Shown piece after piece: positions 39,142 to 61,902 of a DNA stretch of 64,000 bases (positions are counted from its first letter, which is position 1; each line of letters opens with the position of its first letter). The stretch comes from Ruegeria marina (GTDB taxonomy: Bacteria > Pseudomonadota > Alphaproteobacteria > Rhodobacterales > Rhodobacteraceae). Under the pieces are notes generated by a model. It saw nothing but the letters and a program-made list of their open reading frames with translations, did no database searches and had not been told where the DNA came from. A program made the position numbers and the translations under genes. The stretch covers positions 1 through 64,000 of the forward strand of contig NZ_FMZV01000013.1 in NCBI RefSeq assembly GCF_900101475.1, written 5' to 3'.

Positions 39142-39223
39142 CAATACCCGGGCTGGAGGAGAGTCCCGGGTTTTCACCAAAGCCCAAAGGCAGGGTGCCA
39201 AACGGGCAAATAGGGAGACTGAC

Positions 39224-43110: not shown

Positions 43111-43125
43111 GGGGGAGGACACAAC

Positions 43126-45663: not shown

Positions 45664-46541
45664 TTGCCGCGGACCAAATGACCGGCGCAATTGATACGCG
45701 TGTGATCTGGGCGCTGTGGCGGCGCGAGGTCACTTCATATCTGCGCGACCGGTCGCAGGTCTTTGGCGGTTTCTCGCGCACCGTGCTGTGGCTGGTGATC
45801 CTGGGCTTCGGGCTTGGCGCAACGCTGCGCGAGATCGAGGGTTATTCCTATTCGCAATACATCCTGCCCGGTGTAATGGTTCTGAACGTGCTGTTCGCGT
45901 CGATGCAATCGGCTTTTGCCCTGGTTTATGACCGCAAGCACGGGCTCTTGCGTCAGGTGCTGGTGTCGCCTGCGCCGCTCATGTCGGTGACGCTTGGCAA
46001 GCTGTCGGGCGGGGCCACGATTGCGGTGCTGCAAGGCTCCATCCCGCTGCTGTTCGCGCCGGTGATCGGTGTACCGCTGAGCCTGCCGGGCCTGCTGGCG
46101 GCCTGGGCGGTGATGTTCGCCATGGGATTCGCCCTGACCGGGGTGGGGGTGGTGATCGCCCTGCGCCTCAAGGGATTGCAGGGCTTCGGCAGCATCTCGA
46201 ACGGGGTGATCCAGCCGCTTTACTTCCTGTCAGGCTCGATCTTTCCGCTCAAGGGCATCGTTGGCGGGATCGGTTTTCTCGATATTCCGCAAGGCTTGCG
46301 TGACGAGCTGCGCAGCCACGGCATTTACGCCATCGGTGGAGGCTGGGTCGTGGAACTGCCGCTCTGGCTTGAGGTCATCGTGCGGGCCAATCCCATCAGC
46401 TACCAGCTTGACCTCATGCGCGAGGCGCTTTTGGGGTATCATCAATTGCCCCAGGACTTGGGGCTGGCAATCTGCGCGGGCTTTCCGCTGGCCGCACTGG
46501 CGGCTGCGTATTGGGCGCTGAGCAACATCCGGCAAGGTTGA
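45660..46541 (+). CDS. ABC-2 type permease, PQQ dehydrogenase-associated (PedC-like)
   Basis: A 293-residue inner-membrane protein with about six hydrophobic helices, for example 'TVLWLVILGFGLGATL', 'LLAAWAVMFAMGFALTGVGVVI' and a C-terminal 'LAICAGFPLAALAAAYWAL'. ABC-2 permeases export drugs, polysaccharides or other compounds. It ends the unit that begins with the cytochrome gene; the next promoter lies at its 3' end. Confidence 0.88.
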   Translation: MIAADQMTGAIDTRVIWALWRREVTSYLRDRSQVFGGFSRTVLWLVILGFGLGATLREIEGYSYSQYILPGVMVLNVLFASMQSAFALVYDRKHGLLRQVLVSPAPLMSVTLGKLSGGATIAVLQGSIPLLFAPVIGVPLSLPGLLAAWAVMFAMGFALTGVGVVIALRLKGLQGFGSISNGVIQPLYFLSGSIFPLKGIVGGIGFLDIPQGLRDELRSHGIYAIGGGWVVELPLWLEVIVRANPISYQLDLMREALLGYHQLPQDLGLAICAGFPLAALAAAYWALSNIRQG

Positions 46542-46585: not shown

Positions 46586-48175
46586 GTGACCAAATCCCTG
46601 TTGACCTTTGGGCAGATGCTGGACGGGTTTGCACGCCTGCGGCCCAATGACCTTGGCGCGCGGGATCTCGAACGCGCGCTGACCTTTTCGCAATGGAACG
46701 AACGGGCACGGCGTCTTGGCAATGCCTTGCTCGGGCTGGGACTGAGCACGGGCGATCGCGTCGCCGTGCTGGCCTATAACCGGCTGGAATGGGCCGAGAT
46801 CTATGCCGCGACGGCCAAGGCCGGGCTGATCGCGGTGCCGTTGAACTTCCGCCTCAGCGCGCTGGAAATGCGCTTCATCATCGAGGATTGCGCCGCGGCG
46901 GCCGTCCTGTCGGAACATGGGCTGCACGGGGCTATCGAAGAGGTCCGGGCCGATCTGGCGATTCCGGAATCGCGCTATGTGCTGTTTGGTGGTCGCGCGG
47001 CAGGCTGGCACGACTACGAGGATCTTCTGAGCCGCGCGGCGTCCTCTGCGCCGGATGTTGCCGTCAGCGACACGGATCCTTGGGCGCTGATGTATACATC
47101 GGGCACCACCGGAAAGCCAAAGGGCGTGATCCGCAGCCACCGCAGCCAGGCGCTTGTCGGGCTGGTGACCGAGATCGAGCTTGGCATCGGCGCGCGTGAT
47201 GACGCGCTGCTGGTCATGCCCATGTGCCACGCGAACTCGCTGAATTTCTTTTCGTCCTTCAGTTATCGCGGCGGTGTCACCTCGATCTTTTCGCGCGCCA
47301 GTTTCGACGCCGAAGAGGCGCTGGACGTGATGGAACGCTCGGGGGCGACCTTCACCTCGCTGGTGCCGACCCATTACATCATGATGCTGGAACAGGCCAA
47401 GGCCGAGAGCCGCACGCGCGACCTGGGCCGAATGACCAAGCTGATGATCTCGTCCGCGCCGGCGCGGGCCGATACCAAGCGCGCGGTGATGGAAATGTTC
47501 CCCAATTCCGGCCTGTTCGAGCTTTACGGTTCGTCAGAGGGCGGCTGGGTCACGATGCTGCATCCCGACGAGCAATTCACAAATCTGGGCACCGTGGGCC
47601 GCGAATGCGTGGGCACCGCGCCGATTCGCCTGCTGGACGATGATGGCAACGAGGTGCCGGACGGGCAGCCGGGCGAGTTGTTCCACTGCACGCCCTACAC
47701 GTTCGACGGTTACTGGAACCTGCCCGAAAAGACCGCCGAGGCCTTCCGCGGGGAATATTGCACCGTGGGCGACATGGCGCTCAGGGACGAGAATGGTTTC
47801 ATCAAGCTGATCGACCGCAAGAAGAACATGATCATTTCCGGCGGCGAGAACATCTATCCCGCCGAGGTCGAAGCGGTGCTGGGCGCCGCGCCTGAAGTGC
47901 GCGACGTGGCAGTGATCGGCTTGCCGGACGAGAAATGGGGTGAACGCGTCCATGCGGTCGTCGTCCTGAAGGATGGTGCGCGGGCCAGCGAGGCCGATGT
48001 GATCGGCTGGTGCGGCGAACGGATCGCACGGTTCAAGCGCCCGCGCAGCGTCAGTTTCGTCGCCGCCGAGGACATTCCGCGCACCGCCACCGGGAAGATC
48101 CAGCACGGAATACTCAAGGAAAAGCTCCTGACCGGGGCCTTTGACAGGACACATATGGCAGGAGCAGCAGAATGA
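46586..48175 (+). CDS. AMP-forming acyl-CoA ligase
   Basis: A 529-residue ANL-family ligase. Motifs: '[21 protein letters not shown]', '[14 protein letters not shown]', '[23 protein letters not shown]' and the C-terminal catalytic Lys in '[11 protein letters not shown]'. It starts at GTG 46586 behind a strong AGGAGG and a dedicated promoter/operator, and overlaps the ThDP-enzyme gene by 4 bases. It likely activates the acid handled by this cluster; by context it corresponds to the ligase (LvaE role) of levulinate-type pathways. The substrate is unproven. Confidence 0.9.
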
Positions 48176-49899
48176 GCCAGGATCTTAACAGCGACGGTTT
48201 GAGCGTTGCAGCATGGATCGCGCGTTTTCTTCAGGCGCGGGGTGTGGACCGGATCTTCGGTCTTCAGGGCGGGCATATCCAGCCGATCTGGGACTTTGCT
48301 GCGCAGCGCGGCATCCGCATCGTCGATGTGCGTCATGAATGCGCCGCGGTGCACATGGCCCATGCCCATGCCGAGCTGACGGGCGGATTTGCGGTGGCCA
48401 TGGTCACCGCCGGGCCGGGTGTGACCAATACCGTGACCGCCATCGCCAATGCGTCGCTGGCCCGCATCCCGGTGCTGGTGATCGGCGGTTGCACCTCGCG
48501 CCCGCAGGCCAATATGGGTCCGTTGCAGGACATCCCGCATGTGGACATCATCAAGCCGGTGGCGCGCCTGTCGAGGACCGCGCGCGTCGCCGATCAGGTG
48601 ATCCGCGAACTGGACGAGGCCGTGGCGCGCGCGATGGGCGACGGCGGCGAACCGGGGCCGGTCTACCTTGAGATCCCGACGGATGTGCTGCGCCAGCACG
48701 TGCCGGAACACATGGTGCTGGATGACTGGATGTCGCCCAAGGCGCCGCGTGTCATGCCGCCCGATCCGACCGCGGTGGCCGAGGCGGCCAAGGCGCTGTG
48801 GACCGCGAAACGCCCGGTGGTCGTTGCGGGCCGCGGCGCCAATGGCGCGGCCGAGGCGCTGAACCGGCTACTCGATGCCTCGGGAGCGCTTTATCTCGAC
48901 ACGCAAGAGGCGCGCGGGCTGGTCTCGGGCGAACATGGCTCTTTCGTGGGGGCGATGCGCGGGCAGGTGATGCAAGAGGCCGATCTGGTCATCACGGTGG
49001 GCCGGCGGCTGGACTACCAGCTTGGGTATGGGTCTCCGGCGGTGTTCCCTCATGCGCGCTTCATTCGCATTTCGGACACGGCGTCGGAACTGATCGACAA
49101 CCGGCGCGGTACGCCTGAACTGCTGGCCACGCCAGCACTGGCATTGGACGCGATTGCCGAGGCGGGCACGGCGCTGGGCGCTCCGGCGCTGGATCGCGAC
49201 TGGGCCGAGGGTACGCGGGCGAAACATGTTGCACGCGCCTCGGGTGGCAATCGCGAGGTGCCGCAAACCGGCAAGGACGGCAAGATCCACCCGATGGCCA
49301 TTTTCGACGCGCTCAAGCAGGTGGCTGACAAGGATTACATCGCGGTTGCCGATGGCGGCGATTTCCTCAGTTTCGCGCGCGTCGGGCTGGAGGCGAAAAC
49401 CTATCTTGATGCCGGGGCCTTTGGCTGTCTGGGCGTGGGTGTGCCTTATGCCAATGCCGCGTCTCTGGCCTTCCCGGACCGCCAGGTGGTCTGTGTCACC
49501 GGCGATGGGGCCTATGGGTTGAACGCGATGGAGATCGACACTGCGGTGCGGCAGGGCGCCAAGCCCGTGATCATCGTCTCGAACAACGCCGCCTGGAATA
49601 TCGAGCGTTTCGACCAGGCTGACAACTACGGCGGGCGCATCGTGGGCACGTTGCTGCGCCATTCCGATTACGCCGGCATGGCGACCGCGCTGGGCCTCTA
49701 TGGCGAGCGGGTCGAGGACCCCGCCGACCTGCCTGCCGCGATCCGGCGCGCGCTGGAGAACGCGCCTGCGGTGGTCGATGTGGTCACCTCGCAGGATGCG
49801 GTTTCGTCGGATGCCAAGAAGGGCCTGGGCTTTGTGCCCGATTACCAGCCGCTGACCGTCTGGGACGATGCCGAGCGCAAGCGCCGGGGCCTGGCATGA
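48172..49899 (+). CDS. Thiamine diphosphate-dependent enzyme (acetolactate synthase-like/2-hydroxyacyl-CoA lyase-like)
   Basis: A 575-residue ThDP enzyme with the three-domain decarboxylase layout. The cofactor-activating Glu is in '[14 protein letters not shown]' (about residue 53), and the pyrophosphate/metal motif runs from '[13 protein letters not shown]' to 'VSNNAAWN'. This family includes acetolactate synthase, benzoylformate decarboxylase, oxalyl-CoA decarboxylase and 2-hydroxyacyl-CoA lyase. Linkage to a CoA ligase (4-base overlap) favours a carboligase or lyase on a 2-hydroxyacyl-CoA or 2-oxo acid; branched-chain synthesis is unlikely because no small subunit is present. Confidence 0.82.
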
Positions 49900-50699
49900 T
49901 GCGCGATCTTGCCAAACCGTCGCCGGCTCTGGCCGAGCGGTTTTCGCTGGCCGGCCGTCGCGCGCTGGTCACTGGGGCCTCGGGCGTGCTGGGCGCGCGG
50001 TTCGCACAGGTGCTGGCCGAGGCGGGCGCCGCCGTCACGCTGGCGGCACGCCGGGTCGAGCCGATGCTGGCGCTGCGGGACCGGATCGAAGGCGCGGGCG
50101 GACAGGCCTGTGTCGTGCCGCTCGATCTGGCCGATGCGCCCACCATCGCCGCCGCCTTCGATACGGCGGAGGAAGCCCTGGGCGGACCCGTTGACCTGGT
50201 GGTGAACAATTCCGGTATCGCGTCGCCGGGGCTGTTGCTGGAGCAGTCGGAAGATGACTGGGCGCAGCTGATGGCCGTCAATCTCGATGGCGCGCGCCGC
50301 GTGGCGGCCGAGGCCGCGCGCCGTCTGGTGGCGGCGGGCGAGGGGGGCAGCATCGTCAATGTCGCCTCGATTCTCGGGCTGCGGCAGGGGGCGGGGGTGG
50401 CGGCCTATGCCACGTCCAAGGCGGCGCTGGTGCAGCTGACCAAGCAACAGGCGCTGGAATGGGCGCGCCATGGCATTCGCGTCAACGCGCTCTGCCCCGG
50501 CTATATCGAGACCGATATCAACCGCGATTTCTTTGCTTCCGACGCCGGGCAGGCGCAGGTCAAGCGCATCCCGATGCGGCGACTGGGCCGGCCTTCGGAA
50601 CTCGACGGGGCGCTTCTGCTGCTGGCCTCGGAGGCGGGCAGTTTCATGACCGGCACGGCGCTGGTGGCCGATGGTGGCCACCTATTGAACCCCTTGTAG
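49896..50699 (+). CDS. SDR-family oxidoreductase of the CoA-ligase cluster
   Basis: A 267-residue short-chain dehydrogenase. '[17 protein letters not shown]' is the cofactor loop, '[11 protein letters not shown]' follows, the catalytic Ser is in 'NVASILG' and the active-site Tyr-Lys in 'YATSKAAL', with '[10 protein letters not shown]' downstream. A TGA/ATG overlap couples it to the ThDP enzyme gene. In levulinate pathways an SDR reduces the 4-oxoacyl-CoA to 4-hydroxyacyl-CoA; a comparable step is possible here. Confidence 0.9.
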
Positions 50700-50709: not shown

Positions 50710-51687
50710 ATGCAGGATTACAGGATCGTGGCACGCGAACCGGGCGGATCGGAGGTGCTGGAGCGCCGCGATTTCACGCCTGACGCGCCGGGGCAGGGCG
50801 AGGTGCTGGTGCGCCATGAGGCCATTGGGCTCAATTTCCTCGATATCTACCACCGCAGCGGGCTCTACCCCTGGGCCGCGCCGCGCGACCTGGTGCCCGG
50901 CTCCGAGGCGGCAGGCGTTGTCGAGGCGGTGGGGCCGGGTGTCACCGGTCTGAACCGGGGCGACCGCGTCGCCTATACCCATCCGCTGGGCGCTTATGCC
51001 TCGGCGCGGGTGATTGCCGCCGACCGGCTGCTCAGGCTGCCGGACGGGATCTCGTCCGAGGTTGCCGCGGGGGTGATCCTCAAGGGCCTGACGGCGCATT
51101 ACCTGATCCATGACAGCTATGTGGCGCAGAAGGGCGACACCGTGCTGGTGCATGCCGCTGCGGGCGGGGTTGGTCTGCTCATGGGTCAATGGCTGGCGGC
51201 TAGGGGTGTCCGGGCCATCGGCACGGCAGGCGGGGCCGAGAAATGCGCGCTGGCGCGGTCGCATGGCTATGACACGGTGATCGACTACAGCGCCGGCGAT
51301 TTCGTTGGTCGGGTCATGGAGTTGACCGGCGGCGCCGGGGTGCAGGCCGTCTATGACAGCGTCGGCGCCGATACCTGGCGCGGCTCGCTGGCTTGTCTGG
51401 CGACCCATGGCAGCTTTGTGAATTTCGGCCAATCCTCTGGGCCGATCACGGGTTTCGCCTTTGGTGATCTGGCCAAGGGCTCGTTCTTTGCCACGCGGCC
51501 CGTCCTTTTCCACTTCACTGCCGATCCCGCCGAATTGCAGCGCCGGGGCGCGGCGCTTTTCGCCGCTTTGGGCGATGGCACGCTGGTCAGCGAGGTGCGC
51601 AATCGCTTTGCGCTGGCCGATGCCGCCAAGGCGCATGACGCGCTGGAAAGCCGGAGCACGACCGGCACGACCGTCCTCATTCCCTGA
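50710..51687 (+). CDS. Quinone oxidoreductase-like MDR-family protein
   Basis: A 325-residue zinc-free medium-chain reductase, the QorA type. N-terminal 'HEAIGLNFLDIYHRSGLYPW', cofactor region 'VLVHAAAGGVGLLMGQWLA' and 'GAGVQAVYDSVG' are typical. Such NADPH-dependent enzymes reduce quinones or alpha,beta-unsaturated carbonyls. It follows the SDR gene by 10 bases. It may detoxify reactive enals made from alcohol oxidation; the precise role is not evident. Confidence 0.9.
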   Translation: MQDYRIVAREPGGSEVLERRDFTPDAPGQGEVLVRHEAIGLNFLDIYHRSGLYPWAAPRDLVPGSEAAGVVEAVGPGVTGLNRGDRVAYTHPLGAYASARVIAADRLLRLPDGISSEVAAGVILKGLTAHYLIHDSYVAQKGDTVLVHAAAGGVGLLMGQWLAARGVRAIGTAGGAEKCALARSHGYDTVIDYSAGDFVGRVMELTGGAGVQAVYDSVGADTWRGSLACLATHGSFVNFGQSSGPITGFAFGDLAKGSFFATRPVLFHFTADPAELQRRGAALFAALGDGTLVSEVRNRFALADAAKAHDALESRSTTGTTVLIP

Positions 51688-51698: not shown

Positions 51699-52163
51699 AT
51701 GAAAACCATCTACGCCACGTCCTGCACCGCAACCCACGAAGCCCGCAATGGCTCGGTCCGCTCGGAGGACGGCCATCTCGACGTCAAGCTTGCCGCGCCG
51801 AAAGAACTGGGCGGGCCGGGCGGCGGCACCAATCCCGAGCAACTGTTCGCCGCCGGCTATGCGGCCTGTTTCACCTCGGCCATGTTGCGCGTGGCGCGCG
51901 AAGCCAAGACCCCCATCGGCAAACCCGCAGTCACCGTGCATTCCGGGCTGCGTTCGGATGGACCGGATCGCTATGCGCTGATTGCCGAGGTCAAGGTGGC
52001 GCTGTCCGATCTGGACCGTGACACGGCGCTGTCCATCGTGCAGGGCGCGCACCGGATCTGTCCGTTTTCCAAGGCCGTGGGCGAGAGCCTGGGCGTGACC
52101 GTCACGCTGACCGACTGGCAGGGCGCGACCGATGGTGAAACGCTGGAACTGGAGCGCGCGTAA
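51699..52163 (+). CDS. Ohr-type organic hydroperoxide resistance protein
   Basis: A 154-residue OsmC/Ohr protein. The cysteine pair lies in 'YAACFTSAML' and 'HRICPFSKAV', the Ohr pattern, with 'GGTNPEQLFAAGYAACF' typical. It should reduce organic or lipid hydroperoxides in the cytoplasm. It stands 11 bases after the MDR gene and 2 bases before the acyl-CoA dehydrogenase, so it is part of the catabolic transcript and may cope with peroxide from flavin oxidation. No OhrR regulator is nearby. Confidence 0.88.
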   Translation: MKTIYATSCTATHEARNGSVRSEDGHLDVKLAAPKELGGPGGGTNPEQLFAAGYAACFTSAMLRVAREAKTPIGKPAVTVHSGLRSDGPDRYALIAEVKVALSDLDRDTALSIVQGAHRICPFSKAVGESLGVTVTLTDWQGATDGETLELERA

Positions 52164-52165
52164 CC

Positions 52166-53392
52166 ATGGATTTCACGCTTTCCCCCCGTATCGAGGACTA
52201 TCGCGCCCGGATCGCCCGGTTTGTCGAGGATGAAATCCTGCCGGTCGAAGAGAACCGCGCCAATTGGGATGCGCATGGCAATATCGCCAGCGCACCGCTG
52301 GAAATCCTGCGCGACAAGGCGCGTGCCGAAGGTCTGTGGTGCTTGCAGCTGAAGCCCGAGACCGGCGGGCAGGGGCTGGGCCGCGTCGGCATGGCGGTCT
52401 GCTACGAGGAGATGAACCGCTCGATATTTGGTCCGGTAGTGTTCAACTCTGCCGCGCCCGATGACGGCAACATGATGGTGCTGGAACAGGCCGCGACCGA
52501 GGCGCAGAAAACCCGCTGGCTTGACCCGATCGTGCGCGGCGAGGTGCGCTCGGCCTTTGTCATGACCGAACCGCATCCCGGCGGCGGGTCGGACCCCGGC
52601 ATGATGCTGACCACCGCGAAGAAACAGCGTGACTCTTATGTGATCCGGGGCCGCAAATGGTTCATCACCGGGGCCGAGGACGCGGCGCATTTCATCCTGA
52701 TGGCTCGCACCTCGGACGATCCGCGCCGGGGGTTGACCGCCTTCCTGCATCACCGCGACGAGCCCGGCTGGCGCATCGACCGGCGCATTCCGATCATGGG
52801 GCCCGAGGAACATGGCGGCCATTGCGAACTGGTCTATGAGGGGATGGAACTGCCCGCCGACCGCGTGCTGCTGGGCGAAGGGCTGGGGCTGAAGCTGACC
52901 CAGATGCGGCTTGGCCCCGCGCGGCTGACCCATTGCATGCGCTGGCTGGGGCTGGCCAAGCGCTGCACCGAGATCGCGCAGGAATATGCGCAGAACCGAC
53001 ATGGTTTTGGCGTGCGCCTGTCGGACCGCGAAAGCATCCAGATCAAGATGGGTGATCTGGCCATGGGGATCGAGATCGGCCGCCTGCTGGTGATGAAGGC
53101 CGCCTGGGCGCTCGATCAGGGCAGTTTCGCGCGCAAGGAAGTGTCCATGGCCAAGATCCATGTGGCGAACCTTTTGCACAAGGCCGCCGATGTGGCGATC
53201 CAGGTCAATGGCGCGCGCGGCTACAGCTGCGACACGGTGCTGGAATGGATCTACCGCTATGCCCGGCAGGCCCGTCTGGTCGATGGCGCGGACGAGGTGC
53301 ACCAGATGGTGCTGAACCGGTTCCTGGGCGACGAGGGGCGGGGTTTCTGGACCTGGCCGGTTGCGCCGCACGTGGCGGGGGCGGCGGAATGA
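52166..53392 (+). CDS. Acyl-CoA dehydrogenase, ACAD10/11-like
   Basis: A 408-residue flavoprotein of the acyl-CoA dehydrogenase fold. Segments recalling the ACAD domain of mammalian ACAD11 are 'IFGPVVFNSAAPDDGNMMVL', 'AFVMTEPHPGGGSDP', 'MRLGPARLTHCMRWLGLA' and the C-terminal 'DGADEVHQMVL'. It overlaps the following kinase-like gene by 4 bases. In ACAD11 and the Pseudomonas levulinate enzyme LvaC, the dehydrogenase domain eliminates phosphate from a 4-phosphoacyl-CoA to give an enoyl-CoA; the same role is inferred here. Ordinary beta-oxidation remains the alternative. Confidence 0.9.
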   Translation: MDFTLSPRIEDYRARIARFVEDEILPVEENRANWDAHGNIASAPLEILRDKARAEGLWCLQLKPETGGQGLGRVGMAVCYEEMNRSIFGPVVFNSAAPDDGNMMVLEQAATEAQKTRWLDPIVRGEVRSAFVMTEPHPGGGSDPGMMLTTAKKQRDSYVIRGRKWFITGAEDAAHFILMARTSDDPRRGLTAFLHHRDEPGWRIDRRIPIMGPEEHGGHCELVYEGMELPADRVLLGEGLGLKLTQMRLGPARLTHCMRWLGLAKRCTEIAQEYAQNRHGFGVRLSDRESIQIKMGDLAMGIEIGRLLVMKAAWALDQGSFARKEVSMAKIHVANLLHKAADVAIQVNGARGYSCDTVLEWIYRYARQARLVDGADEVHQMVLNRFLGDEGRGFWTWPVAPHVAGAAE

Positions 53393-54426
53393 GTGATCTG
53401 GACCTCACCGCGCTGGAAGGCTGGCTGGCGGGCAAGACCGCTGGCGGTGATCTGCGCCTGGAACGCATCGGCGGCGGCCAGTCGAACCCGACGTGGTTCG
53501 TCGACTGGGGCGAAAGCCGCTATGTTCTGCGCAAGAAGCCGGCCGGGCCGATCCTGCCCGGCGCGCATGCCATCGAACGGGAATTCCGCGTGCTGCGCGC
53601 GCTGGAGGGCACGGATGTTCCGGTGCCGCGCGCGCTCTGGCTGGAAGAGGATGCCAGCATCCTCGGCACCCCTTTCTACGTGATGGAGCGGCTGGACGGG
53701 CGGGTGTTCACCGACTGCACCCTGCCGGGTCTGACGCCGGAGGATCGGCGCGCGATCTACCTCGACATGGCGCGCACGCTGGCGCGGCTGCATGCGGTGC
53801 GGCCCGAGGCCGTAGGCCTTGGTGATTTCGGCAAGCCGGGCAATTACTTCGAGCGCCAGATCAACCGCTGGGGGCGGCAATACCGCGAAAGCCCCGGCGG
53901 GCGGGTCGCGGCGCTGGACCGGCTGCTGGACTGGCTCACGGCGAATATGCCCGAAGATGATGGCGCGGTGTCGATTGCGCATGGCGATTTCCGGTTGGGC
54001 AACATGCTGTTCCACCCCACCGAACCGCGGGTGATCGGCGTGCTGGACTGGGAATTGTCCACGCTGGGTCATCCGCTGGCCGACCTCGGCTTCTGCGTGA
54101 TGCCCTGGCATACCGCGCCGGACGAATATGGCGGCCTAGTGGGCACCGGCTGGCAGGATGCGGGCATTCCGACCCGCGCCGAGTTCGAGGCGGAATACCA
54201 CGCTCACGCCATCCCGACCGCGCCATTGACCGCATTCCACATGGCCTTTGCGCTGTTCCGTTTCGCGGTGATCTTTGTCGGCATCGCCGACCGGGCGCGG
54301 GCGGGCAACGCCGCCTCGGACGAAGCGGCGACGCTGGCGCCGCTGGCAGAGCGCTTTGCCATCCGCGCGCTGGAGGTGATCCGGGGCGGACATCAGACGA
54401 CATCCAAGCAACGACGACACGCCTGA
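53389..54426 (+). CDS. APH-like kinase of the ACAD10/11/LvaA type
   Basis: A 345-residue aminoglycoside-phosphotransferase-fold kinase. Glycine-rich region '[13 protein letters not shown]', ATP Lys in 'YVLRKKPAG', catalytic loop '[15 protein letters not shown]' and the metal Asp in '[19 protein letters not shown]' are nearly those of the ACAD10/11 kinase domain. LvaA and ACAD10/11 kinases phosphorylate the hydroxyl of 4-hydroxyacyl-CoAs. The ATG lies inside the acyl-CoA dehydrogenase stop region (ATGA), so the two are translated together, as two genes rather than one fused protein. Aminoglycoside resistance is not supported. Confidence 0.9.
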
Positions 54427-54452: not shown

Positions 54453-54905
54453 ATGAAGAAACTGACCATCAACGGCATCCAGAAGGAGGTGGCCTCGGAC
54501 GGCCAGACACCTCTGCTCTGGGTCATTCGCGAAGAACTGGGCATGACCGGAACCAAGTTCGGCTGCGGCCAGGGGCTGTGCGGCGCCTGCACCGTGCATG
54601 TGGGCGGACAGGCCGTGCGTTCCTGCCAGACCTGGCTTGAGGATCTCGACGAAGGGGCCGAAGTGACCACGATCGAGGGTCTGCATCCCACCGGCGAGCA
54701 TCCGCTGCAACTGGCCTGGATCAAGCATCAGGTCCCGCAATGCGGCTATTGCCAGTCCGGCCAGATCATGCAGGCGGCCGATCTTCTGGCCAACAACCCC
54801 GATCCGTCTGACGCAGAGATCGTCGAGGCCATGAACGGCAACCTGTGCCGCTGCATGACCTACGAAAGCATCCGCGCGGCCATCAAGACCGCGGCGAAAG
54901 CCTGA
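54453..54905 (+). CDS. 2Fe-2S subunit of a molybdenum hydroxylase
   Basis: A 150-residue xanthine oxidase-family small subunit. Plant-type ferredoxin cluster: '[15 protein letters not shown]' with a fourth Cys in 'AVRSCQT'. Second cluster: '[11 protein letters not shown]' and '[10 protein letters not shown]'. It has no signal peptide; if the partner is exported by Tat, this subunit would travel with it after folding. It starts after GGGAGGAG and lies 14 bases before the large-subunit gene. Confidence 0.93.
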
Positions 54906-54919
54906 GGGAGGACAACAAC

Positions 54920-57187
54920 ATGACAATTCAGCAAAAACCGGGCGTCAGCCGCCGCGCCTTCCTTGTCGGTGCAAGTACGGCAGGTGCAGCGGTCACCATG
55001 GGATGGGGTCTGCTCTCGCCAACCTCCGCCGATGTGCGCAGCATGATTTCACCCACGCTGTTCTTCGACATTCACGCAGATGAAAGCGTGGTGATCCACA
55101 TCCAGAAGGCCGAAGTCGGTCAACACGTCGGCACCGCGCTGGCGCAGATCGTCGCGGACGAACTGGAAGTGGACTGGAAGAATGTTTCCATCGACTACAT
55201 CGGCTTTGATCCGCGCCTTGGTCTGCATCTGACCGGTGGTTCGTGGTCGATCAACTGGACCTTTGATGCGCTGTCGCGCGCCGGCGCGTCCGGCCGGATC
55301 ACCATGCTGGAAGCCGCGGCCGAGAAATTCGGCGGATCGCCCAGCGACTATACCGCAAAAAAGGGTGTCATCACCGGTAACGGGCATATGGTCACCTATG
55401 GCGCGCTGGTTGCGTCCGGCATCACCGCGCGCAGCTTCTCCGAAGAAGAGATGAAGGCGATCACGCTGAAGACAGCGGATCAGCGCCACTATGTTGGCAC
55501 CAGCCTCGAAGCGCTTGATATCCCTGCCAAGTCGCGCGGTCAGGCCATGTATGGCATTGACGCAAAAGTGCCGGGCATGGTTGTCGCGACACCGCTGATC
55601 CCGGCCGTGCGCAACGGCGCGCGGGTAGTTTCGGTCGATGACAGCGAAGCCAAGTCGGTCAAGGGATATCACGGCTATCACGTCGCCGAAGGCGATGTGA
55701 TCGAGCACTACTACACCGGTATCGTGCTGGCCGTCGCGGACACCTACTTTGCGGCCCGCAAGGCCGCCGAGCTGATCAAGGTCGAATACGATGTCGGCCC
55801 GAATGCCAAGTTGTCCCTCAAGGATCTGCGCGCCGAAAACCTGCGCCTGATCGAAAGCGGCGAGGCGGAATCGCACTTCCTCAAGGAAGGGGATGCCGAA
55901 GCGGCCATCGCCAATGCCGAAAGCAAGGTCGAAGCCATCTACGAAGTCGGTGTAAACCTGCACGGCGCTTTGGAACCGCAAACCTGTCTGGTCGACATTC
56001 AGGATGGGGTCTATCATGTCTATACCGGGACACAGATTCAGACCTTCATGGTCGAGGATCTGAAAAAACTCGGTATTCCGCAGGAAAACATCGTGGTGCA
56101 CCAGCAGCTTCTGGGCGGATCGTACGGTCGGCGTCAGTATTCCGACCCGCATATCCTTGCGGCGATGGCAGCAAAGCAGTTTGGCAAGCCGGTCAAGGTC
56201 ATCTACTCGCGCGAATTCGAACAGGTGATGGACTATTCGCGCCCGGTGAACGCTGTAAAGCTGACTGCGGGCCTGAACGGTGGCAAGATCGACGGAATGC
56301 GGGCCGCGAACGCCGGTTCTTACTTGATCCCGATCCTTGCTCCGCCTTTCATGGCACCGGACAAGACCGGCAAGGAAGGCGCTCCGATGCACGATCCCTT
56401 TGCGGTAAACGGGTTGGATCACTGGTATACGGTGCCAAACCAGACCGTTGTGACCTCGCTCAATCAGGTCGCACAATCCGCGTTGCCGCCGGGCGCGGTG
56501 CGGGCGGTAGGCCCGGGCTACCAGTATTTCGCGCTGGAAAGCTTTATCGACGAGATCGCGAACGAAATCGGCAAGGACCCGTTGTCGCTGCGTCTGGAAC
56601 TGCTGGACGGAACCGGCAAGAACGCGGGTTCGGGTGCACAGCAGGATGGCGCGAAACGTCTGGCGGCGGTTCTGCGCGAAGCGGTCAACCGCTCCGGCTA
56701 TGGCAAGCCGCTGCCGGCGGGTGAATCCATCGGTATTGCCTGTTCGGCACCGCAGGAACGCGCCTCGGCGATCTGGAACGCCTGCGCGGCCCATGTCGCG
56801 GTCGATGCTGAAACCGGCGAATTCGAGGTGAAGAAGCTGACGCTGGTGTCCGAACACGGCACGCTGGTGAACCCGCAGATGACCCGTGACCAGCTGATGG
56901 GGGCAGCCCTCTGGGGTCTGGCCTTTGCTGCGCTCGAAGATGTTCAGTTTGAGGATGGGCGATTGATCGCGGAGTCGTTCCAAGATATGAACCCGTTGCG
57001 TCAGGAGCACCTGCCGGAACTGGATCTGACCGTATTGGACAGCGGTCACTATCCGGTCGGCGTGGGCGAGGCCGGGGCCACCGTGATCGCACCCGCGATT
57101 GCCAACGCCATCTTCAAGGCGGTTGGTGCACGTGTTCGGTCGCTGCCGATCACGCCGGAGAAGGTCAAGGCCGCCATGTCGGCCTGA
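54920..57187 (+). CDS. Molybdopterin-binding subunit of an aldehyde oxidase/isoquinoline-oxidoreductase-like enzyme, Tat-exported
   Basis: A 755-residue molybdenum hydroxylase large subunit. The N-terminus 'GVSRRAFLVGASTAGAA' is a twin-arginine signal, so the enzyme acts in the periplasm. Cofactor-binding segments: 'GGSYGRRQYSDPH', 'PPGAVRAVGPGYQYFALE' and the catalytic Glu in 'GVGEAGATVIAPAIANA'. No FAD subunit is present, as in isoquinoline 1-oxidoreductase and acetic-acid-bacterial aldehyde dehydrogenases, so electrons should go to a cytochrome. By context it would oxidise the aldehyde made by the PQQ enzyme to the acid. Confidence 0.9.
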   Translation: MTIQQKPGVSRRAFLVGASTAGAAVTMGWGLLSPTSADVRSMISPTLFFDIHADESVVIHIQKAEVGQHVGTALAQIVADELEVDWKNVSIDYIGFDPRLGLHLTGGSWSINWTFDALSRAGASGRITMLEAAAEKFGGSPSDYTAKKGVITGNGHMVTYGALVASGITARSFSEEEMKAITLKTADQRHYVGTSLEALDIPAKSRGQAMYGIDAKVPGMVVATPLIPAVRNGARVVSVDDSEAKSVKGYHGYHVAEGDVIEHYYTGIVLAVADTYFAARKAAELIKVEYDVGPNAKLSLKDLRAENLRLIESGEAESHFLKEGDAEAAIANAESKVEAIYEVGVNLHGALEPQTCLVDIQDGVYHVYTGTQIQTFMVEDLKKLGIPQENIVVHQQLLGGSYGRRQYSDPHILAAMAAKQFGKPVKVIYSREFEQVMDYSRPVNAVKLTAGLNGGKIDGMRAANAGSYLIPILAPPFMAPDKTGKEGAPMHDPFAVNGLDHWYTVPNQTVVTSLNQVAQSALPPGAVRAVGPGYQYFALESFIDEIANEIGKDPLSLRLELLDGTGKNAGSGAQQDGAKRLAAVLREAVNRSGYGKPLPAGESIGIACSAPQERASAIWNACAAHVAVDAETGEFEVKKLTLVSEHGTLVNPQMTRDQLMGAALWGLAFAALEDVQFEDGRLIAESFQDMNPLRQEHLPELDLTVLDSGHYPVGVGEAGATVIAPAIANAIFKAVGARVRSLPITPEKVKAAMSA

Positions 57188-57229: not shown

Positions 57230-57274
57230 AATAAGATGCCCCTAAGGGCTGAATACCAAGGGAGGAGAAAACCC

Positions 57275-58318
57275 ATGAAGACCATTGCAACCGTCGCCGT
57301 GGCGGCATGTCTGACTGCCGGTGCCGTTCAGGCGCAGGAAGTGTTCGAGATGACGAGCGCTTTCGGAAAAAACCTGCCGATCCTGGGCACGGCCGGTGTC
57401 GATTTCGTCGACAAGATCAATGCAATTTCGAGCGAGGTTGAATTCAAGCATTACGATCCCGGTGAACTGGTGCCGACCTTGGAAGCGCTCGACGCGGTGT
57501 CGAACGGCTCGGTGGATGCGGCCTATACCACCTCGGGTTACTGGCAGGGCAAGATGGCGGCTGCCTCGCTTTTTGCCGCCGTGCCCTTTGGCCCGGAAGC
57601 GGGCGAGTTCCTGGGCTGGATGCTCTATGATGACGGCGCCGCGCTGTTTCAGCAGATGTATGACGAAAACGGCTATAACGTTAAGGTTCTGCCCTGCGGT
57701 GTGATCGCGCCGGAGACTTCGGGCTGGTTCAAGAACGAAATCAACTCGCTCAAGGATCTCGAAGGTCTGAACATGCGCTTCTTCGGCCTGGGCGCCGAGG
57801 TGATGCAGAAACTGGGCGTGTCGACCTCGCTGCTCGCGGGTGGCGACATCTTCCCGGCGCTGGAGCGCGGCGCGATTGACGCGACCGAGTTCTCGATGCC
57901 GCGTATCGATGCGCGTCTCGGCTTCCACCAGATTGCCAAGTACAACTACTTCCCCGGTTGGCACCAGCCCGCGACCCTGTTCGAACTCCTGATCAACAAG
58001 GATCGCTGGGAAGATCTGGACGAGTCCGCGCAGAAGCAGATCGAGATCGCCTGTCTCGCCAACATCACCACCAACTTCGCCGAGGGCGAGGCCACGAACT
58101 TCCCGGCCATGGTGGACAATGTCGAGAATAACGGCGTGACCATCAAGCAATGGACCCCCGAGCAACTGTCCGCGTTTGAAGCAGCCTGGAACGAGGTGGC
58201 CGGCGAACTGGCGGCCGAGGATGCCTTCTTCAAGAAGGTCTGGGATGACCTGAGCGAGTACCGTGAAGGCTACAAGACCTGGGGCAACACGATCTATCTG
58301 CCGCGTCCGCGCGACTGA
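57275..58318 (+). CDS. TRAP transporter substrate-binding protein (TakP-like DctP)
   Basis: A 347-residue periplasmic receptor with signal peptide ('TVAVAACLTAGAVQAQE'). 'GGDIFPALERGAIDATEFSMP' and the substrate-anchoring Arg in 'LEGLNMRFFGLGAEVMQKLG' fit the 2-oxo-acid/monocarboxylate branch (TakP type) of TRAP receptors. It should present a carboxylate, plausibly the acid produced in the periplasm by this cluster, to the DctQM channel. ATG 57275 is preceded by GGAGGAG. A strong hairpin follows the gene. Confidence 0.92.
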   Translation: MKTIATVAVAACLTAGAVQAQEVFEMTSAFGKNLPILGTAGVDFVDKINAISSEVEFKHYDPGELVPTLEALDAVSNGSVDAAYTTSGYWQGKMAAASLFAAVPFGPEAGEFLGWMLYDDGAALFQQMYDENGYNVKVLPCGVIAPETSGWFKNEINSLKDLEGLNMRFFGLGAEVMQKLGVSTSLLAGGDIFPALERGAIDATEFSMPRIDARLGFHQIAKYNYFPGWHQPATLFELLINKDRWEDLDESAQKQIEIACLANITTNFAEGEATNFPAMVDNVENNGVTIKQWTPEQLSAFEAAWNEVAGELAAEDAFFKKVWDDLSEYREGYKTWGNTIYLPRPRD

Positions 58319-58342
58319 TCGGGCGGCGCTTCCGGCTGAGAC

Positions 58343-58370
58343 GGGACAGGCCCGAATACGGGCCTGTCCC
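58343..58370 (+). terminator. Strong hairpin between the TRAP receptor and permease genes
   Basis: A perfect 12-bp inverted repeat, GGGACAGGCCCG at 58343-58354 and CGGGCCTGTCCC at 58359-58370, 4-base loop, followed by TTGCTG. Its form matches the glpV-glpK hairpin and would favour receptor mRNA over permease mRNA. Confidence 0.7.
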
Positions 58371-58437
58371 TTGCTGCACCCGCAAAACCGCACCTGCACA
58401 TTATCGCTGCCGCGCCTGCGCGCGGTGAGGGGGACAC

Positions 58438-59256
58438 ATGCATGAAGAAGAAACAGTAATCGGGGGGGACGAGCCGAGCGTTGCGATCAATGATCCCGGC
58501 GAGATCGACCGGGGCGAGCATGGTCGTGGCGACAGGTTTGTCGTCAACCTGTCCAATGTGGTGGCCTGGCTTTTTCCCATCCTGATGATCGCCATCTGCG
58601 CCCAGGTCGTGCTGCGCCAGGCAGGCAACAACCAGGCCTGGCTGGACGATTTCCAGTGGTGGCTGTACGGCGCGGCGGTACTGGTGGGCGTGGCCTATGC
58701 GGTGACCACCAACAGCCATGTGCGCGTGGATATCTTCTATGACAATTTCGACCCCAGGCGCAAAGCACGCATCGACGTCTTTGCGCTGGCGTGGTGTTTC
58801 CTGCCCTTCGTGATCCTCAGCTGGGATGTGACGCTGGGCTATGCGATTTCCTCGGTGGTCGCCGATGAAGGCTCGGACAGCCCCAACGGGCTGCACAACC
58901 TTTGGATTCTCAAGGTGGTGCTGAACCTGTCCTTCGTTCTGATCGCGATGGCAACCTGGTCGATGTACAAACGCCGCCTAAAGGTGCTGACCGCGCCGAC
59001 GCTGGGGCGCAAGCTGCTCTATGCCCTGCCGTCCACCATGTTCGCGATCAACCTCGCGGCCTATTACGCGATATACGTGTATCACTGGCTCACGTTGCCC
59101 GAGGGCGAAAACCCGCGCGCCATCGCGCGCAAACCGATCTTCGACGAGTTCGAGGCCGGGCCATGGGATATCAAGTACACCATCGTCATCACCGTGGTCC
59201 TGACGATCGTTGTTGTCGGTCTCGCGCTTCTGCGTGACGCACGGAGGGCGCGCTGA
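58438..59256 (+). CDS. TRAP transporter small permease (DctQ family)
   Basis: A 272-residue membrane protein, longer than the typical 160-200 residues, with an N-terminal hydrophilic, acidic extension of about 35 residues ('EEETVIGGDEPSV') before the first helix. Further hydrophobic helices are near 'GAAVLVGVAYAVTT', 'CFLPFVILSW', 'VLNLSFVLIAMATW' and the C-terminal 'VITVVLTIVVVGLALL'. Its last base is shared with the large-permease ATG. Large DctQ proteins of this kind go with TakP-like receptors. Confidence 0.9.
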   Translation: MHEEETVIGGDEPSVAINDPGEIDRGEHGRGDRFVVNLSNVVAWLFPILMIAICAQVVLRQAGNNQAWLDDFQWWLYGAAVLVGVAYAVTTNSHVRVDIFYDNFDPRRKARIDVFALAWCFLPFVILSWDVTLGYAISSVVADEGSDSPNGLHNLWILKVVLNLSFVLIAMATWSMYKRRLKVLTAPTLGRKLLYALPSTMFAINLAAYYAIYVYHWLTLPEGENPRAIARKPIFDEFEAGPWDIKYTIVITVVLTIVVVGLALLRDARRAR

Positions 59257-60704
59257 TGCTGAGCTTTGTCGGTCAATTCCTGACGCTGAACGAGATCGCG
59301 GTGATCTTCATGTTCGGCGGTTTCATCGTCATGCTGTTTCGCGGCGTACCGGTGGCGATGGCGCTGGTGGGGATCAGCCTTATCTTCGTGCTGATCGCCG
59401 AATTCCTGCTCGATCCGTTCCGCGGGACCTTCCGCGATATCATCGATTTCAACCGCACCGGGATCGAATACCAGAAACTGCACGCCCTCTCGGGGCGGCT
59501 GTTTGGCTCGATCGTCAAGAACCCGGTGCTGGTGGCGCTGCCGATGTTCATCTTCATGGGGTTGATGCTGGACCAGTCCGGCGTGGCGCTCCGCATGATG
59601 CAGTCGATGCAGAAACTGTTCCGGGGGTTGCGCGGCGGGCTGTCGCTGACCGTGCTGCTGATCGGGATCATCCTTGCCGCCTCGACCGGGGTGATCGGCG
59701 CATCCGTCACGCTGCTTGGCGTGATGGCGCTGCCGCAGATGATGAACCAGAACTATTCCAAGCCCATCGCCACCGGCACCATCGCCTCGGCGGGGACGCT
59801 GGGCATCCTGATCCCGCCGTCGATCATGCTGGTGATCATGTCGGATCAGCTGGCCATCAGCCTTGGGGATCTGTTCATGGGCGCATTGTTCCCAGGGCTG
59901 TTGCTGGGCGCGCTTTATATCGTCTTCATCGTGATCTACGGCTTCATCAATCCCAAGGCGATGCCCGCGCCGGAGAAATCCGAGCATGTCGGCTGGCCGG
60001 TGGTCAAGGAGGTGCTGCTGGCGGTGGTGCCGCCGATGCTGCTGATCCTTCTGGTTCTGGGCTCGATCTTTGCGGGTTTCGCCACACCGACCGAAGCCTC
60101 GGGTCTGGGGGCGCTGGGGGCGACGCTGCTGGCGCTGGCCAACCGCAAGCTTGACCTGAAGGTGCTGGCCACTGTCAGCCGATCGACGCTGAATACCTCG
60201 GGCTATATCGTCGGCATCTTCCTCGCGGCGAACTTCTTTGCCTTCATCCTGCGGCGCTATGGCGGGGACGAGATCATCGAGCACATGGTGCTGAATGCCT
60301 TTGACGGGCACCCCTACTGGACCGTGGCGTTCATCCTGTTCATCGTGTTCCTGCTGGGTTTCCTGCTGGACTGGATCGAGATCACGATCATCATCATGCC
60401 GCTGATGCTGCCGGTGATCCTGTCGCTGAACTTGCCGATCGAAGGCTACGACACGGTCAATCAGCCGTCCGTCGTGTGGTTCGCGATCCTTGTGGCGGTC
60501 ACATTGCAGACCAGCTTTCTGACGCCGCCGGTGGGTTTTGCGCTGTTCTACCTCAAGGGGGTCTGTCCGCCCGGCGTGTCGCTGAGCCACATCTACAAGG
60601 GCGTGATCCCCTTCGTCATGCTGCAGCTTCTGGGCCTGTTCATCGTCTTTGAATTCCCGGCCCTGGTGACATGGTTGCCGGCCTACGCCTATGGCACTCA
60701 ATAA
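59256..60704 (+). CDS. TRAP transporter large permease (DctM family)
   Basis: A 482-residue sodium-coupled transport protein with about twelve hydrophobic segments. 'LSGRLFGSIVKNPVLVALP', 'AGTLGILIPPSIMLVIMSDQ' and 'ATPTEASGLGALGATLLAL' are the conserved DctM signatures. The start codon overlaps the small-permease stop. With the two preceding genes it makes a complete TRAP system; the thiolase gene follows after 19 bases. Confidence 0.94.
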   Translation: MLSFVGQFLTLNEIAVIFMFGGFIVMLFRGVPVAMALVGISLIFVLIAEFLLDPFRGTFRDIIDFNRTGIEYQKLHALSGRLFGSIVKNPVLVALPMFIFMGLMLDQSGVALRMMQSMQKLFRGLRGGLSLTVLLIGIILAASTGVIGASVTLLGVMALPQMMNQNYSKPIATGTIASAGTLGILIPPSIMLVIMSDQLAISLGDLFMGALFPGLLLGALYIVFIVIYGFINPKAMPAPEKSEHVGWPVVKEVLLAVVPPMLLILLVLGSIFAGFATPTEASGLGALGATLLALANRKLDLKVLATVSRSTLNTSGYIVGIFLAANFFAFILRRYGGDEIIEHMVLNAFDGHPYWTVAFILFIVFLLGFLLDWIEITIIIMPLMLPVILSLNLPIEGYDTVNQPSVVWFAILVAVTLQTSFLTPPVGFALFYLKGVCPPGVSLSHIYKGVIPFVMLQLLGLFIVFEFPALVTWLPAYAYGTQ

Positions 60705-60723: not shown

Positions 60724-61902
60724 ATGAAAGACATCGTCATTGCTTCAGCCGCCCGTACCGCCATCGGCGATTTCGGTGGCGCGTTGAAGGACGTCAGCCC
60801 CACCGAACTGGGCATTGTAACCGCCCGCGCGGCCATCGCGCGGGCGGGGATCTCGGCCTCCGATGTGGGGCAGGCATTCTTTGGCAATGTTATCCATTCC
60901 GAAGCTCGCGACATGTACCTGTCCCGCACCATCGCGATGGGCGCTGGCGTGCCGGACAGCGCGCCTGCACTGACAGTCAACCGTCTTTGCGGCTCTGGGT
61001 TGCAGGCCATCGTGTCGGGCATACAGGCCATCGCCCTTGGGGATGCCGAGGTTGTTCTTGCCGGCGGGGCGGAAAGCATGAGCCGCGCGGGCTATCTGAT
61101 ACCTTCTGCGCGCTGGGGGCAAAAGATGGGGGATGCGCAGGCCATCGACATGATGACCGCGGTGCTTCACGATCCCTTCGGTCACGGCCATATGGGGATC
61201 ACCGCCGAGAACGTGGCCGAGCGTCACGGGATCGACCGCGCGGCGCAGGACGCCTTTGCCGTCGAAAGCCACCGGCGCGCGGCGGCGGCCATCGCGGCGG
61301 GGCATTTCCGCGAGCAGATCGTGCCGGTGGTGCAACAGACCCGCAAGGGCGAGGTGGTGTTCGACACCGATGAACATGTGCGCGCGGATGCGAACCTTGA
61401 GGGCATGGCGGGCCTGCGGGCGGCATTCAGGAAGGACGGGACCGTGACGGCGGGCAATGCCTCGGGCATCAACGACGGCGCGGCCTCGCTCATCCTGATG
61501 AGTGCCGAGGCGGCAGAGCGCCTGGGCGTGACGCCACTGGCGCGCGTGGTTTCCTACGGTCATGCCGGGGTAGCACCCGAGGTGATGGGGCTGGGTCCGG
61601 TGCCCGCGATGCGTATCGCGCTCGGGCGGGCGGGGATCACGGCGGGGGACCTGGACGTGGTGGAAAGCAACGAAGCCTTCGCGGCCCAGGCCTGCGCCGT
61701 CACTGCGGAACTCGGGCTTGATCCGGCACGGGTCAACCCCAATGGCGGGGCTGTTGCGCTTGGCCATCCCATCGGGGCCAGCGGGGCGATCATTACCACC
61801 AAGCTGGTTTATGAAATGCGCCGAACGGGCGCCCGAAAGGGCGCGGCGACCATGTGTATCGGCGGCGGGCAGGGGATTGCCCTGATCGTCGAGGCGCTGT
61901 GA
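60724..61902 (+). CDS. Thiolase (acetyl-CoA acetyltransferase family)
   Basis: A 392-residue thiolase. The nucleophilic Cys is in '[12 protein letters not shown]' (about residue 89), and the acid/base residues are His in '[15 protein letters not shown]' and Cys in '[10 protein letters not shown]'. It either condenses two acetyl-CoA or cleaves 3-oxoacyl-CoA; inside a catabolic cluster with ligase and dehydrogenase genes, cleavage is more likely. No hydratase or 3-hydroxyacyl-CoA dehydrogenase of classical type is adjacent, so those steps must be provided elsewhere. Confidence 0.94.

Follow-up and report, generated by a model that had tools for sequence, protein, structure and literature searches.

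The dehydrogenase and kinase gene pair

The window analysed here is a stretch of 64,000 nucleotides from Ruegeria marina (positions 1 to 64,000 of the forward strand of contig NZ_FMZV01000013.1, assembly GCF_900101475.1), and within it an acyl-CoA dehydrogenase (ACAD) gene is followed, with a short overlap, by a gene for a kinase of the APH fold. The pair lies in a run that also includes an acyl-CoA ligase, a thiamine diphosphate (ThDP) enzyme, a short-chain dehydrogenase/reductase (SDR), a medium-chain dehydrogenase/reductase (MDR) and an Ohr-family protein, all present as listed in an initial annotation of this DNA (Table 1). From the comparisons set out below we think it probable that the kinase and ACAD together act as a converter of 4-hydroxyacyl-CoA within an island for the use of hydroxylated alcohols and acids, and that the ThDP enzyme belongs to a separable 2-hydroxyacyl-CoA lyase module.

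The ACAD frame encodes 408 aa, and the kinase start codon, the ATG at 53389, lies inside the ACAD stop, reading gcggaATGAgtgat, such that the two frames share the four bases ATGA at 53389-53392. The coordinates and overlap first reported were exact, and the four peptides then quoted are all found in the translations. A longer kinase frame from 53245 is also open; the start shared with homologues is the one at 53389. The ACAD contains PF00441 (118 bits), PF02770 and PF02771, and the kinase matches the APH domain PF01636 with 195.6 bits against a cut-off of 23.2. With these domains, and with ACAD11 among the best solved relatives, the view that the pair resembles the two halves of ACAD11 as separate genes stands.

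Residues, phylogeny and structure of the dehydrogenase

The solved proteins closest in sequence to the window ACAD are 4hr3 (229 bits), mouse ACAD11 (8v3u and 8v3v, 228 and 226 bits) and human ACAD11 (2wbi, 217 bits), and the remaining solved matches are other ACADs with 157.4 bits or less. Comparison of structures, which had been proposed as a check, gave the same relatives, the top four PDB matches of the predicted ACAD structure being 4hr3 and ACAD11 chains. The models of the ACAD and the kinase are of modest confidence (mean pLDDT 71.5 and 70.7, respectively) and the region of the catalytic Asp in the ACAD model is below 50, and for this reason no pocket geometry was read from them.

According to the part of PMC12440821 that deals with active-site residues, ACAD10, ACAD11 and LvaC are distinguished by R626 and an HCMR motif (H634, R637), and also have a general R631 and a catalytic Asp, D753. 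Alignment with mouse ACAD11 places R248, H256-CM-R259, R253 and D373 of the window ACAD at these positions, D373 being in the segment VDGADEVH and supplying a catalytic Asp instead of Glu. The same alignment shows these residues conserved in 12 relatives (64-92% identity) and in the ACAD from Azoarcus. Among the 19 PF00441 matches of the R. marina genome an H-x-x-R motif is found only in the window ACAD and in L078 on contig C44, and of the 17 other ACADs of this genome in the alignment only L078 had it. This second ACAD with the HCMR motif (L078:724-1980) is 50% identical to mouse ACAD11, a closer relative of ACAD11 than the window ACAD is, and an APH search of the genome found no kinase beside it on contig C44.

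A phylogenetic tree of 35 ACAD rows includes the Mesorhizobium ACAD (L116), which is interrupted by an in-frame stop, up to that stop, and leaves out seven partial or very divergent R. marina sequences (L076, L079, L080, L081, L084, L085 and L087). Three clades join at 100/99, apart from the other R. marina ACADs included. They are the window-type clade (19 rows, 100/99), an ACAD11-type clade (100/100) consisting of the three rows mouse ACAD11, 4hr3 and L078, and a clade (100/99) of three rows (L144, Azoarcus and Cupriavidus L118) containing the ACAD in the LvaC position of L144, a locus that is syntenic with the lva operon of Pseudomonas and described further below. How the three branch relative to one another has weak support (88/88). 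Separation of the common clade from ordinary ACADs, which here are those of the R. marina genome only, was also 100/99 in a smaller tree made without five R. marina ACADs that are partial or very divergent. Joining of the ACAD to the ACAD10/11-Lva clade at 100/99, and a place for the kinase in the ACAD11 class at 100/98, is the phylogenetic outcome on which the initial annotation had staked its proposal.

The window ACAD is not inside the ACAD11 branch, as the tree gives it a clade of its own, and it shares 36-37% identity with ACAD11. Judged by its residues and its position in the tree, it is of the ACAD10/11-LvaC kind but of a third subfamily that is neither of the named branches. The system resembles mammalian ACAD11 and ACAD10 in kinase class, in the motif R-x4-R-x2-HCMR, in the catalytic Asp and in having a kinase and an ACAD devoted to one task, and differs in that the two are fused in mammals and are separate genes in the window.

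Kinase classes and the DUF6285 protein

By sequence, the best solved relatives of the kinase are 3dxp (318.7 bits) and ACAD11 (236.8 bits), and 3dxp is also closest to the predicted structure in fold, with a 25-hydroxysteroid kinase among the next matches. The kinase tree splits at 100/98 into class A (12 rows) and class B (9 rows), with one long-branched row unassigned. Class A includes the window kinase and its relatives, ACAD11, 3dxp and the R. marina kinase L069. The tree lacks L102, L103, L104 and the R. marina sequences L003 and L004, which the motif filter did not retrieve, and it drew warnings for a long branch (L006 of R. marina) and for unusual composition (the ACAD11 kinase and L093).

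The two classes differ in their association with DUF6285, a Pfam family named as of unknown function. Each class-B kinase in the tree is followed by a DUF6285 protein or, in L105, fused to one (Pfam and profile searches), and the neighbour of DUF6285 is a class-B-like kinase in all 32 loci examined (matches having a locus; L107, which is another piece of the L106 locus, was left out). Kinase and DUF6285 are found in one open frame of 453-486 aa in L105, L106, L142 and L143 (Table 1), which supports a direct partnership. DUF6285 was detected in 38 of the 398 sampled genomes of the phylum, and 21 of the 32 loci (L099-L106, L120-L143) have no ACAD relative within ~3.3 kb.

Profile searches found DUF6285 neither in the window nor in the R. 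marina genome, nor in 17 loci with a kinase 42-88% identical to that of the window, of which eight are class A by tree and nine by identity alone. The possibility that DUF6285 accompanies the window-type ACAD everywhere was rejected, as it is missing from these 17 loci and from the window. Conversely, we do not claim that all kinases of the second kind have it, given that the Cupriavidus locus L118, where the kinase is 32% identical and outside the kinase tree, has no DUF6285 in 19 kb and is an exception to the class-B pairing, and that no kinase was found in L113. Six loci (L017, L018, L094, L095, L117 and L146) have a class-B-like kinase with DUF6285, while others in the same ACAD clade have class A, and the kinase has therefore been exchanged within one ACAD lineage.

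In L144 a divergent regulator of 650 aa with a GESGTGKE motif is followed by a class-B-like kinase (352 aa), a DUF6285 protein (118 aa), an ACAD, an SDR (255 aa) and a ligase, which is the order of lvaR and lvaA-E; the locus was identified by this synteny and not by name. The portions of PMC6692424 consulted give LvaB as a 12-kDa protein and report, for Pseudomonas citronellolis, kinase and SDR homologues of 352 aa and 255 aa, lvaB itself not being found there. LvaB is thus probably a DUF6285 protein, going by the synteny and sizes in L144. That no LvaB-like protein is visible in the window, as was noticed at the outset, is then to be expected because the window kinase is of the ACAD11 class, beside which no DUF6285 was found.

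Two further observations concern genes near such kinases. A histidine-phosphatase-family gene follows the kinase and DUF6285 genes in Azospirillum (L094:14620-14943) and Azoarcus (L097:14502-15179), and one near lvaA in P. citronellolis is mentioned in PMC6692424, in the part on that species; its product may undo stray phosphorylation. On R. marina contig C17 the class-A kinase L069 (9543-10571), 47% identical to that of the window, lies near SDRs and two ACADs lacking the HCMR motif, and perhaps serves another pathway with phosphorylated alcohols.

The 2-hydroxyacyl-CoA lyase and its ligase

The ThDP enzyme had been regarded as an extra gene. It is indeed present, but it was not named as a 2-hydroxyacyl-CoA lyase, and this identity changes the likely pathway. 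It is a full-length relative of AcHACL (PDB 7pt1; 720.7 bits), an enzyme that cleaves 2-hydroxyisobutyryl-CoA according to the relevant parts of PMC7176365 and PMC8760513, and it keeps the catalytic E493 and Q128, the size-limiting L127 and I492, and the C-terminal lid motif. On these residues and on its match to a family model it is a 2-hydroxyacyl-CoA lyase of the Actinomycetospora type, predicted to act on acids of C5 or less. The setting differs from that of AcHACL. The HCL ligase given in the AcHACL paper is 465 aa, compared by length only with the 529 aa of the window ligase, and the partners in the window are SDR, ACAD and kinase and not mpdB and mpdC (PMC7176365, sections on the gene cluster).

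The lyase is rare, being found above the NF058623 cut-off in nine of 295 genomes of the family. In 22 of the 24 loci of the main set its neighbour is a ligase of one family, 44-88% identical to that of the window, and the same ligase family is beside the lyase in L062, L067, L068 and L096 (59-63%) and in Azoarcus (55%), whereas the neighbour in the Methylibium locus L098 is not of this family. The best score of the window ligase is to PRK06187. In five lyase-free loci a ligase gene of another kind separates ACAD from kinase, and the window ligase is only 30-32% identical to these ligases.

Linkage of the lyase to the dehydrogenase and kinase

We compared 31 lyase loci, made up of the 24 of the main set, L062, L067 and L068, L096, L097 and L098, and the window; L063-L066 duplicate L017, L012, L023 and L026 and were counted once. 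An intact ACAD of the ACAD10/11 type lies beside the lyase in seven of them, namely the window, L009 (Maliponia), L010 (Brevirhabdus), L016 (Stappia), L017 and L018 (Rhabdonatronobacter type) and L097 (Azoarcus). The gene orders are not the same, as lyase-SDR-MDR-(Ohr)-ACAD-kinase, lyase-SDR-ACAD-kinase, lyase-ACAD-kinase-DUF6285-SDR and, in Azoarcus, a divergent arrangement were all seen. The Azoarcus region is on a plasmid and includes genes for a pyrroloquinoline quinone (PQQ) alcohol dehydrogenase, an aldehyde dehydrogenase, a formate dehydrogenase, the lyase, kinase, SDR and ACAD, and a tripartite ATP-independent periplasmic (TRAP) transporter, the ACAD being of the type in the LvaC position. 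That the genes adjoin repeatedly, in differently built loci, speaks for a functional link. Three of the genomes surveyed have both the lyase and a window-type ACAD, and in each of them the two genes are neighbours. The complete run from ligase to kinase is found in Maliponia aquimaris CECT 8898 and Brevirhabdus pacifica DSM 27767.

The two sets of genes also occur apart, and naturally occurring deletions show where one ends and the other begins. Locus L012 is collinear with the window at 46599-49889, 50702-51691 and 57278-61895, with ligase, lyase, MDR, TRAP transporter and thiolase kept, and lacks the SDR and the stretch holding most of Ohr, the ACAD, the kinase and the aldehyde oxidase; a search of its genome (G133, 90% complete) at E <= 1e-80 found no ACAD of the window type. 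Hence, the lyase module apparently works without SDR, ACAD and kinase. The ACAD-kinase pair, mostly with an SDR, is in turn found in loci without the lyase. Examples, on other replicons and in similar gene company, are Sulfitobacter dubius (BktB, SDR, ACAD, ligase, kinase, TRAP transporter, a quinone-reductase-like gene and a hydrolase), strain La 6 (thiolase, SDR, ACAD, ligase, kinase and TRAP transporter) and Mesorhizobium (a quinone-reductase-like gene, SDR, ligase and kinase around the interrupted ACAD). The window SDR is 51-59% identical to SDRs beside window-type ACADs without lyase and 54-83% to those with it.

Several observations weigh against a 4-hydroxyacyl-CoA converter tied to a lyase island. 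No ACAD of the ACAD10/11 type was seen in 23 of the 31 lyase loci, though eight of these end at most 2.5 kb downstream, and L026 has an ACAD fragment only. Window-type ACADs occur in three of nine lyase-positive and six of 40 lyase-negative genomes, which is no clear enrichment; the 40 were hand-picked, are mostly larger and complete and not random, and an ACAD fragment in G020 was not counted. As enrichment at the genome level is unclear, the claimed association rests on adjacency and not on co-occurrence. Five other loci have a ligase gene separating ACAD from kinase, of a kind that the window lacks, and the catalytic Asp is not exclusive, as it is found in an ordinary R. marina ACAD (L072) without the HCMR motif. 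Finally, though the part of PMC11342911 that compares these proteins puts LvaC at 56-62% identity to ACAD11 and ACAD10, the ACAD of L144 in the LvaC position is only 34% identical to ACAD11, and either L144 is not a true LvaC locus or the percentages were counted differently.

Proposed reactions and alternative explanations

For ACAD10 and ACAD11, phosphorylation of 4-hydroxyacyl-CoA by the kinase followed by FAD-dependent elimination of phosphate is described in the mechanistic parts of PMC12440821 and PMC11342911. Phosphorylation and phosphate elimination by the window pair is well supported by inference, because the ACAD has the ACAD10/11-specific residues and groups in the tree with ACAD11 and the syntenic LvaC; the chemistry first suggested for these genes is thus borne out by residues and phylogenetic place. 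A PQQ-dependent alcohol dehydrogenase and a molybdenum aldehyde oxidase would produce hydroxy acids, which the TRAP transporter would import and the ligase convert to CoA esters. The SDR would interconvert 4-oxo- and 4-hydroxyacyl-CoA, as LvaD does, the kinase would transfer phosphate from ATP to the 4-hydroxyl of a short 4-hydroxyacyl-CoA, and elimination of this phosphate by the FAD-containing ACAD would leave a 2-enoyl-CoA, to be used by beta-oxidation and the BktB-like thiolase. Cleavage by the lyase of 2-hydroxyacyl-CoAs with no more than about five carbons would release formyl-CoA and a carbonyl compound; the R. marina genome encodes a formate dehydrogenase that scores above cut-off. We favour two separable thioester modules, one for gamma-dehydration by phosphate elimination and one for alpha-cleavage, with a shared front end that oxidises and imports alcohols. 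We infer the sequence of these reactions, and also that both modules draw on a single set of substrates (diols, hydroxy acids or lactones).

A strictly linear pathway is conceivable, though we rank it below the two modules. Here the carbonyl product of the lyase would become the 4-hydroxyacyl-CoA of the kinase and ACAD, either after reduction by the SDR or by way of a lactone that the hydrolase opens, and then renewed activation. The recurrence of the adjacency in differing gene orders, in Azoarcus even with another ACAD subfamily, the assembly of all the required enzyme types on the Azoarcus plasmid and the presence of a single ligase in the run of the window are in its favour. The L012 island, without SDR, Ohr, ACAD, kinase and aldehyde oxidase in a genome where the ACAD was not detected, and the ACAD-kinase module of lyase-free loci speak against it, as do the lyase residues, which imply substrates of C5 or less and hence few products with a gamma-hydroxyl; overall we consider it unlikely.

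More doubtful again is a particular single route in which alpha-cleavage and gamma-phospho-elimination are combined in a new way and the lyase makes the precursor of the kinase and ACAD, for example from tetrahydrofurfuryl alcohol. PQQ dehydrogenase, aldehyde oxidase and ligase would lead to the C5 tertiary 2-hydroxytetrahydrofuroyl-CoA, the ring-hydroxylating step having no assigned gene. The lyase would then yield formyl-CoA and gamma-butyrolactone, the hydrolase would open the lactone, and 4-hydroxybutyryl-CoA would be phosphorylated and converted to crotonyl-CoA. To our knowledge, none of the routes for ethylene glycol, citramalate, pantoate, isoprene-diol or methylerythritol explains both modules. 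The genes PP_2047-2051 of P. putida (1,4-butanediol) were considered as a precedent and dropped, as the word 'kinase' is absent from the main text of PMC7090098.

The SDR, ACAD and kinase might instead form a levulinate/4-hydroxyvalerate pathway of the Lva kind that lies in a lyase island by chance. The trio does exist alone, with a BktB thiolase and TRAP transporter, and LvaA-LvaB-LvaC-LvaD-LvaE, like the syntenic operon L144, offers the same enzyme types (kinase, ACAD with HCMR, SDR and ligase). The parallel to Lva drawn in the initial annotation stands for the SDR, whose identity to its counterpart in the LvaD position of L144 is 51%. It fails for the ACAD, which is in a separate clade and 41% identical to its counterpart in the LvaC position (a reference assigned by synteny), and for the ligase, which is 32% identical to that in the LvaE position. 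The kinase class also differs, DUF6285 is missing, and the regulator is of the GntR type in the window but carries a sigma-54-type motif in L144; none of the island's genes was assigned as a sigma-54 regulator, although no profile search was aimed at such regulators. Together with the repeated linkage to the lyase, this makes a simple Lva-like pathway improbable, and the evidence favours the other suggestion then made, that the same chemistry serves a different pathway.

We regard as very unlikely a salvage system for lipid peroxidation products, in which Ohr would reduce hydroperoxides, the quinone-reductase-like enzyme 2-alkenals, and kinase and ACAD would clear 4-hydroxy acids. The run does contain an MDR gene and an Ohr-family gene whose match is above cut-off, and ACAD10 and ACAD11 handle 4-hydroxy fatty acids in mammals (PMC12440821 and PMC11342911, in the parts on these enzymes). 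However, L010 has lost ~300 bases from an otherwise collinear run, with Ohr the only gene there to be disrupted, and the substrates suggested by the adjoining lyase and PQQ alcohol dehydrogenase are short alcohols and acids. An ordinary ACAD beside an unrelated kinase of the APH fold, for example for a steroid-like alcohol as the 25-hydroxysteroid kinase among the structural matches might suggest, is the least probable given the ACAD10/11-specific residues and clade, the closeness of the kinase to 3dxp and then ACAD11 in sequence and to 3dxp in fold, and the APH gene in 24 of the 25 ACAD loci compared.

The chemistry of ACAD10 and ACAD11 was assigned only recently, and their bacterial diversity is little described in open-licence papers. 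Among the open-licence matches listed in PMC, no title or abstract connects bacterial genes of the ACAD10/11 type to a 2-hydroxyacyl-CoA lyase, or kinases of this sort to DUF6285; inventories of animal peroxisomes (e.g. PMC8919083, in the lists consulted) contain both the names '2-hydroxyacyl-CoA lyase' and 'ACAD11'. This analysis adds a third ACAD subfamily, a split of the kinases into two classes that assigns DUF6285 to one of them, and a recurrent link to the lyase. The recurrence of the lyase and trio in distant bacteria suggests an uncharacterised use of short hydroxylated compounds, and defined proteins and named strains (M. aquimaris and B. pacifica) are now available for finding the catabolic route.

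Other genes of the island

The features of the island are listed in Table 1. Homologues of the GntR-family regulator adjoin the ligase-lyase pair elsewhere (cluster C2, 11 loci including the window). The run associated with the PQQ alcohol dehydrogenase encodes two substrate-binding proteins, a beta-propeller protein, a protein of unknown nature (44069) and the ATPase and permease of an ATP-binding cassette (ABC) transporter, and is collinear in L008, L009 and L011. The island thus resembles Ped-type PQQ alcohol dehydrogenase islands, which have the PQQ enzyme with beta-propeller, binding protein and ABC genes, but differs in that its PQQ genes are in one run with ligase, lyase, SDR, ACAD and kinase.

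Table 1. Features of the island in the window, and kinase-DUF6285 fusions at other loci
Feature	Position	Strand	Basis
GntR-family regulator	34672..35427	+	NCBIfam GntR-type matches below cut-off
pqqE	35412-36524	-	pqqB/pqqC/pqqE models TIGR02109, TIGR02111, TIGR02108 all above cut-off
Small frame in pqqD position	36478-36756	-	Gene order only
pqqC	36753-37532	-	PQQ biosynthesis model above cut-off
pqqB	37493-38380	-	PQQ biosynthesis model above cut-off
PQQ-dependent alcohol dehydrogenase, methanol/ethanol family	39218..40951	+	TIGR03075 513.4 bits, cut-off 480.05
PQQ-alcohol-dehydrogenase-associated run	41024..46541	+	TIGR03871, TIGR03863, TIGR03866, TIGR03864, TIGR03861, all below cut-off
Acyl-CoA ligase, lyase-linked family	46586..48175	+	PF00501, PF13193; relatives beside lyase
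2-Hydroxyacyl-CoA lyase (ThDP), predicted Actinomycetospora type	48172..49899	+	NF058623 1026.7 bits, cut-off 600
SDR, proposed 4-oxoacyl/4-hydroxyacyl-CoA oxidoreductase	49896..50699	+	PF13561
MDR/quinone-reductase-like enzyme	50710..51687	+	NF008024 313.4 bits, below cut-off 348
Ohr-family protein, accessory	51699..52163	+	TIGR03561 137.4 bits, cut-off 88.85
ACAD10/11-like dehydrogenase, proposed 4-phosphoacyl-CoA phosphate-eliminating	52166..53392	+	R248, R253, H256-C257-M258-R259, D373
APH-fold kinase, ACAD11 class, proposed 4-hydroxyacyl-CoA kinase	53389..54426	+	Catalytic D200, N205
Two-subunit molybdenum aldehyde oxidase-like enzyme (IorA/IorB type)	54453..57187	+	NCBIfam aldehyde oxidoreductase/xanthine dehydrogenase matches below cut-off
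TRAP transporter (binding protein, small and large permease)	57236..60704	+	Read from translations; collinear in L012
Beta-ketothiolase, BktB-like	60724..61902	+	NF006552 628.7 bits, cut-off 565
Alpha/beta hydrolase with epoxide-hydrolase N-terminal domain	62016..63134	+	PF06441, PF00561; 86% in L009
Kinase-DUF6285 fusions	L105:337-1797, L106:1441-2802, L142:1435-2862, L143:400-1791		Natural fusions

The protein encoded at 44069-44875 (268 aa) has no Pfam or NCBIfam match and is 70-72% identical to its counterparts in the PQQ-associated run of L008, L009 and L011. A decaying relative of the island is found at L026:8976-13630, where blocks matching 39375-40436, 48583-50044, 50268-50594, 52393-52739 and 54423-55905 of the window abut one another, overlapping by 3-8 bases at every junction, and several genes are truncated as a result; this is a metagenome assembly and misassembly is possible. 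In Maliponia, a gene for a protein of 477 aa that reads like an aldehyde dehydrogenase (L009:16393-17826) replaces the molybdenum aldehyde oxidase pair of the window, which suggests a swap of one aldehyde-oxidising enzyme for another.

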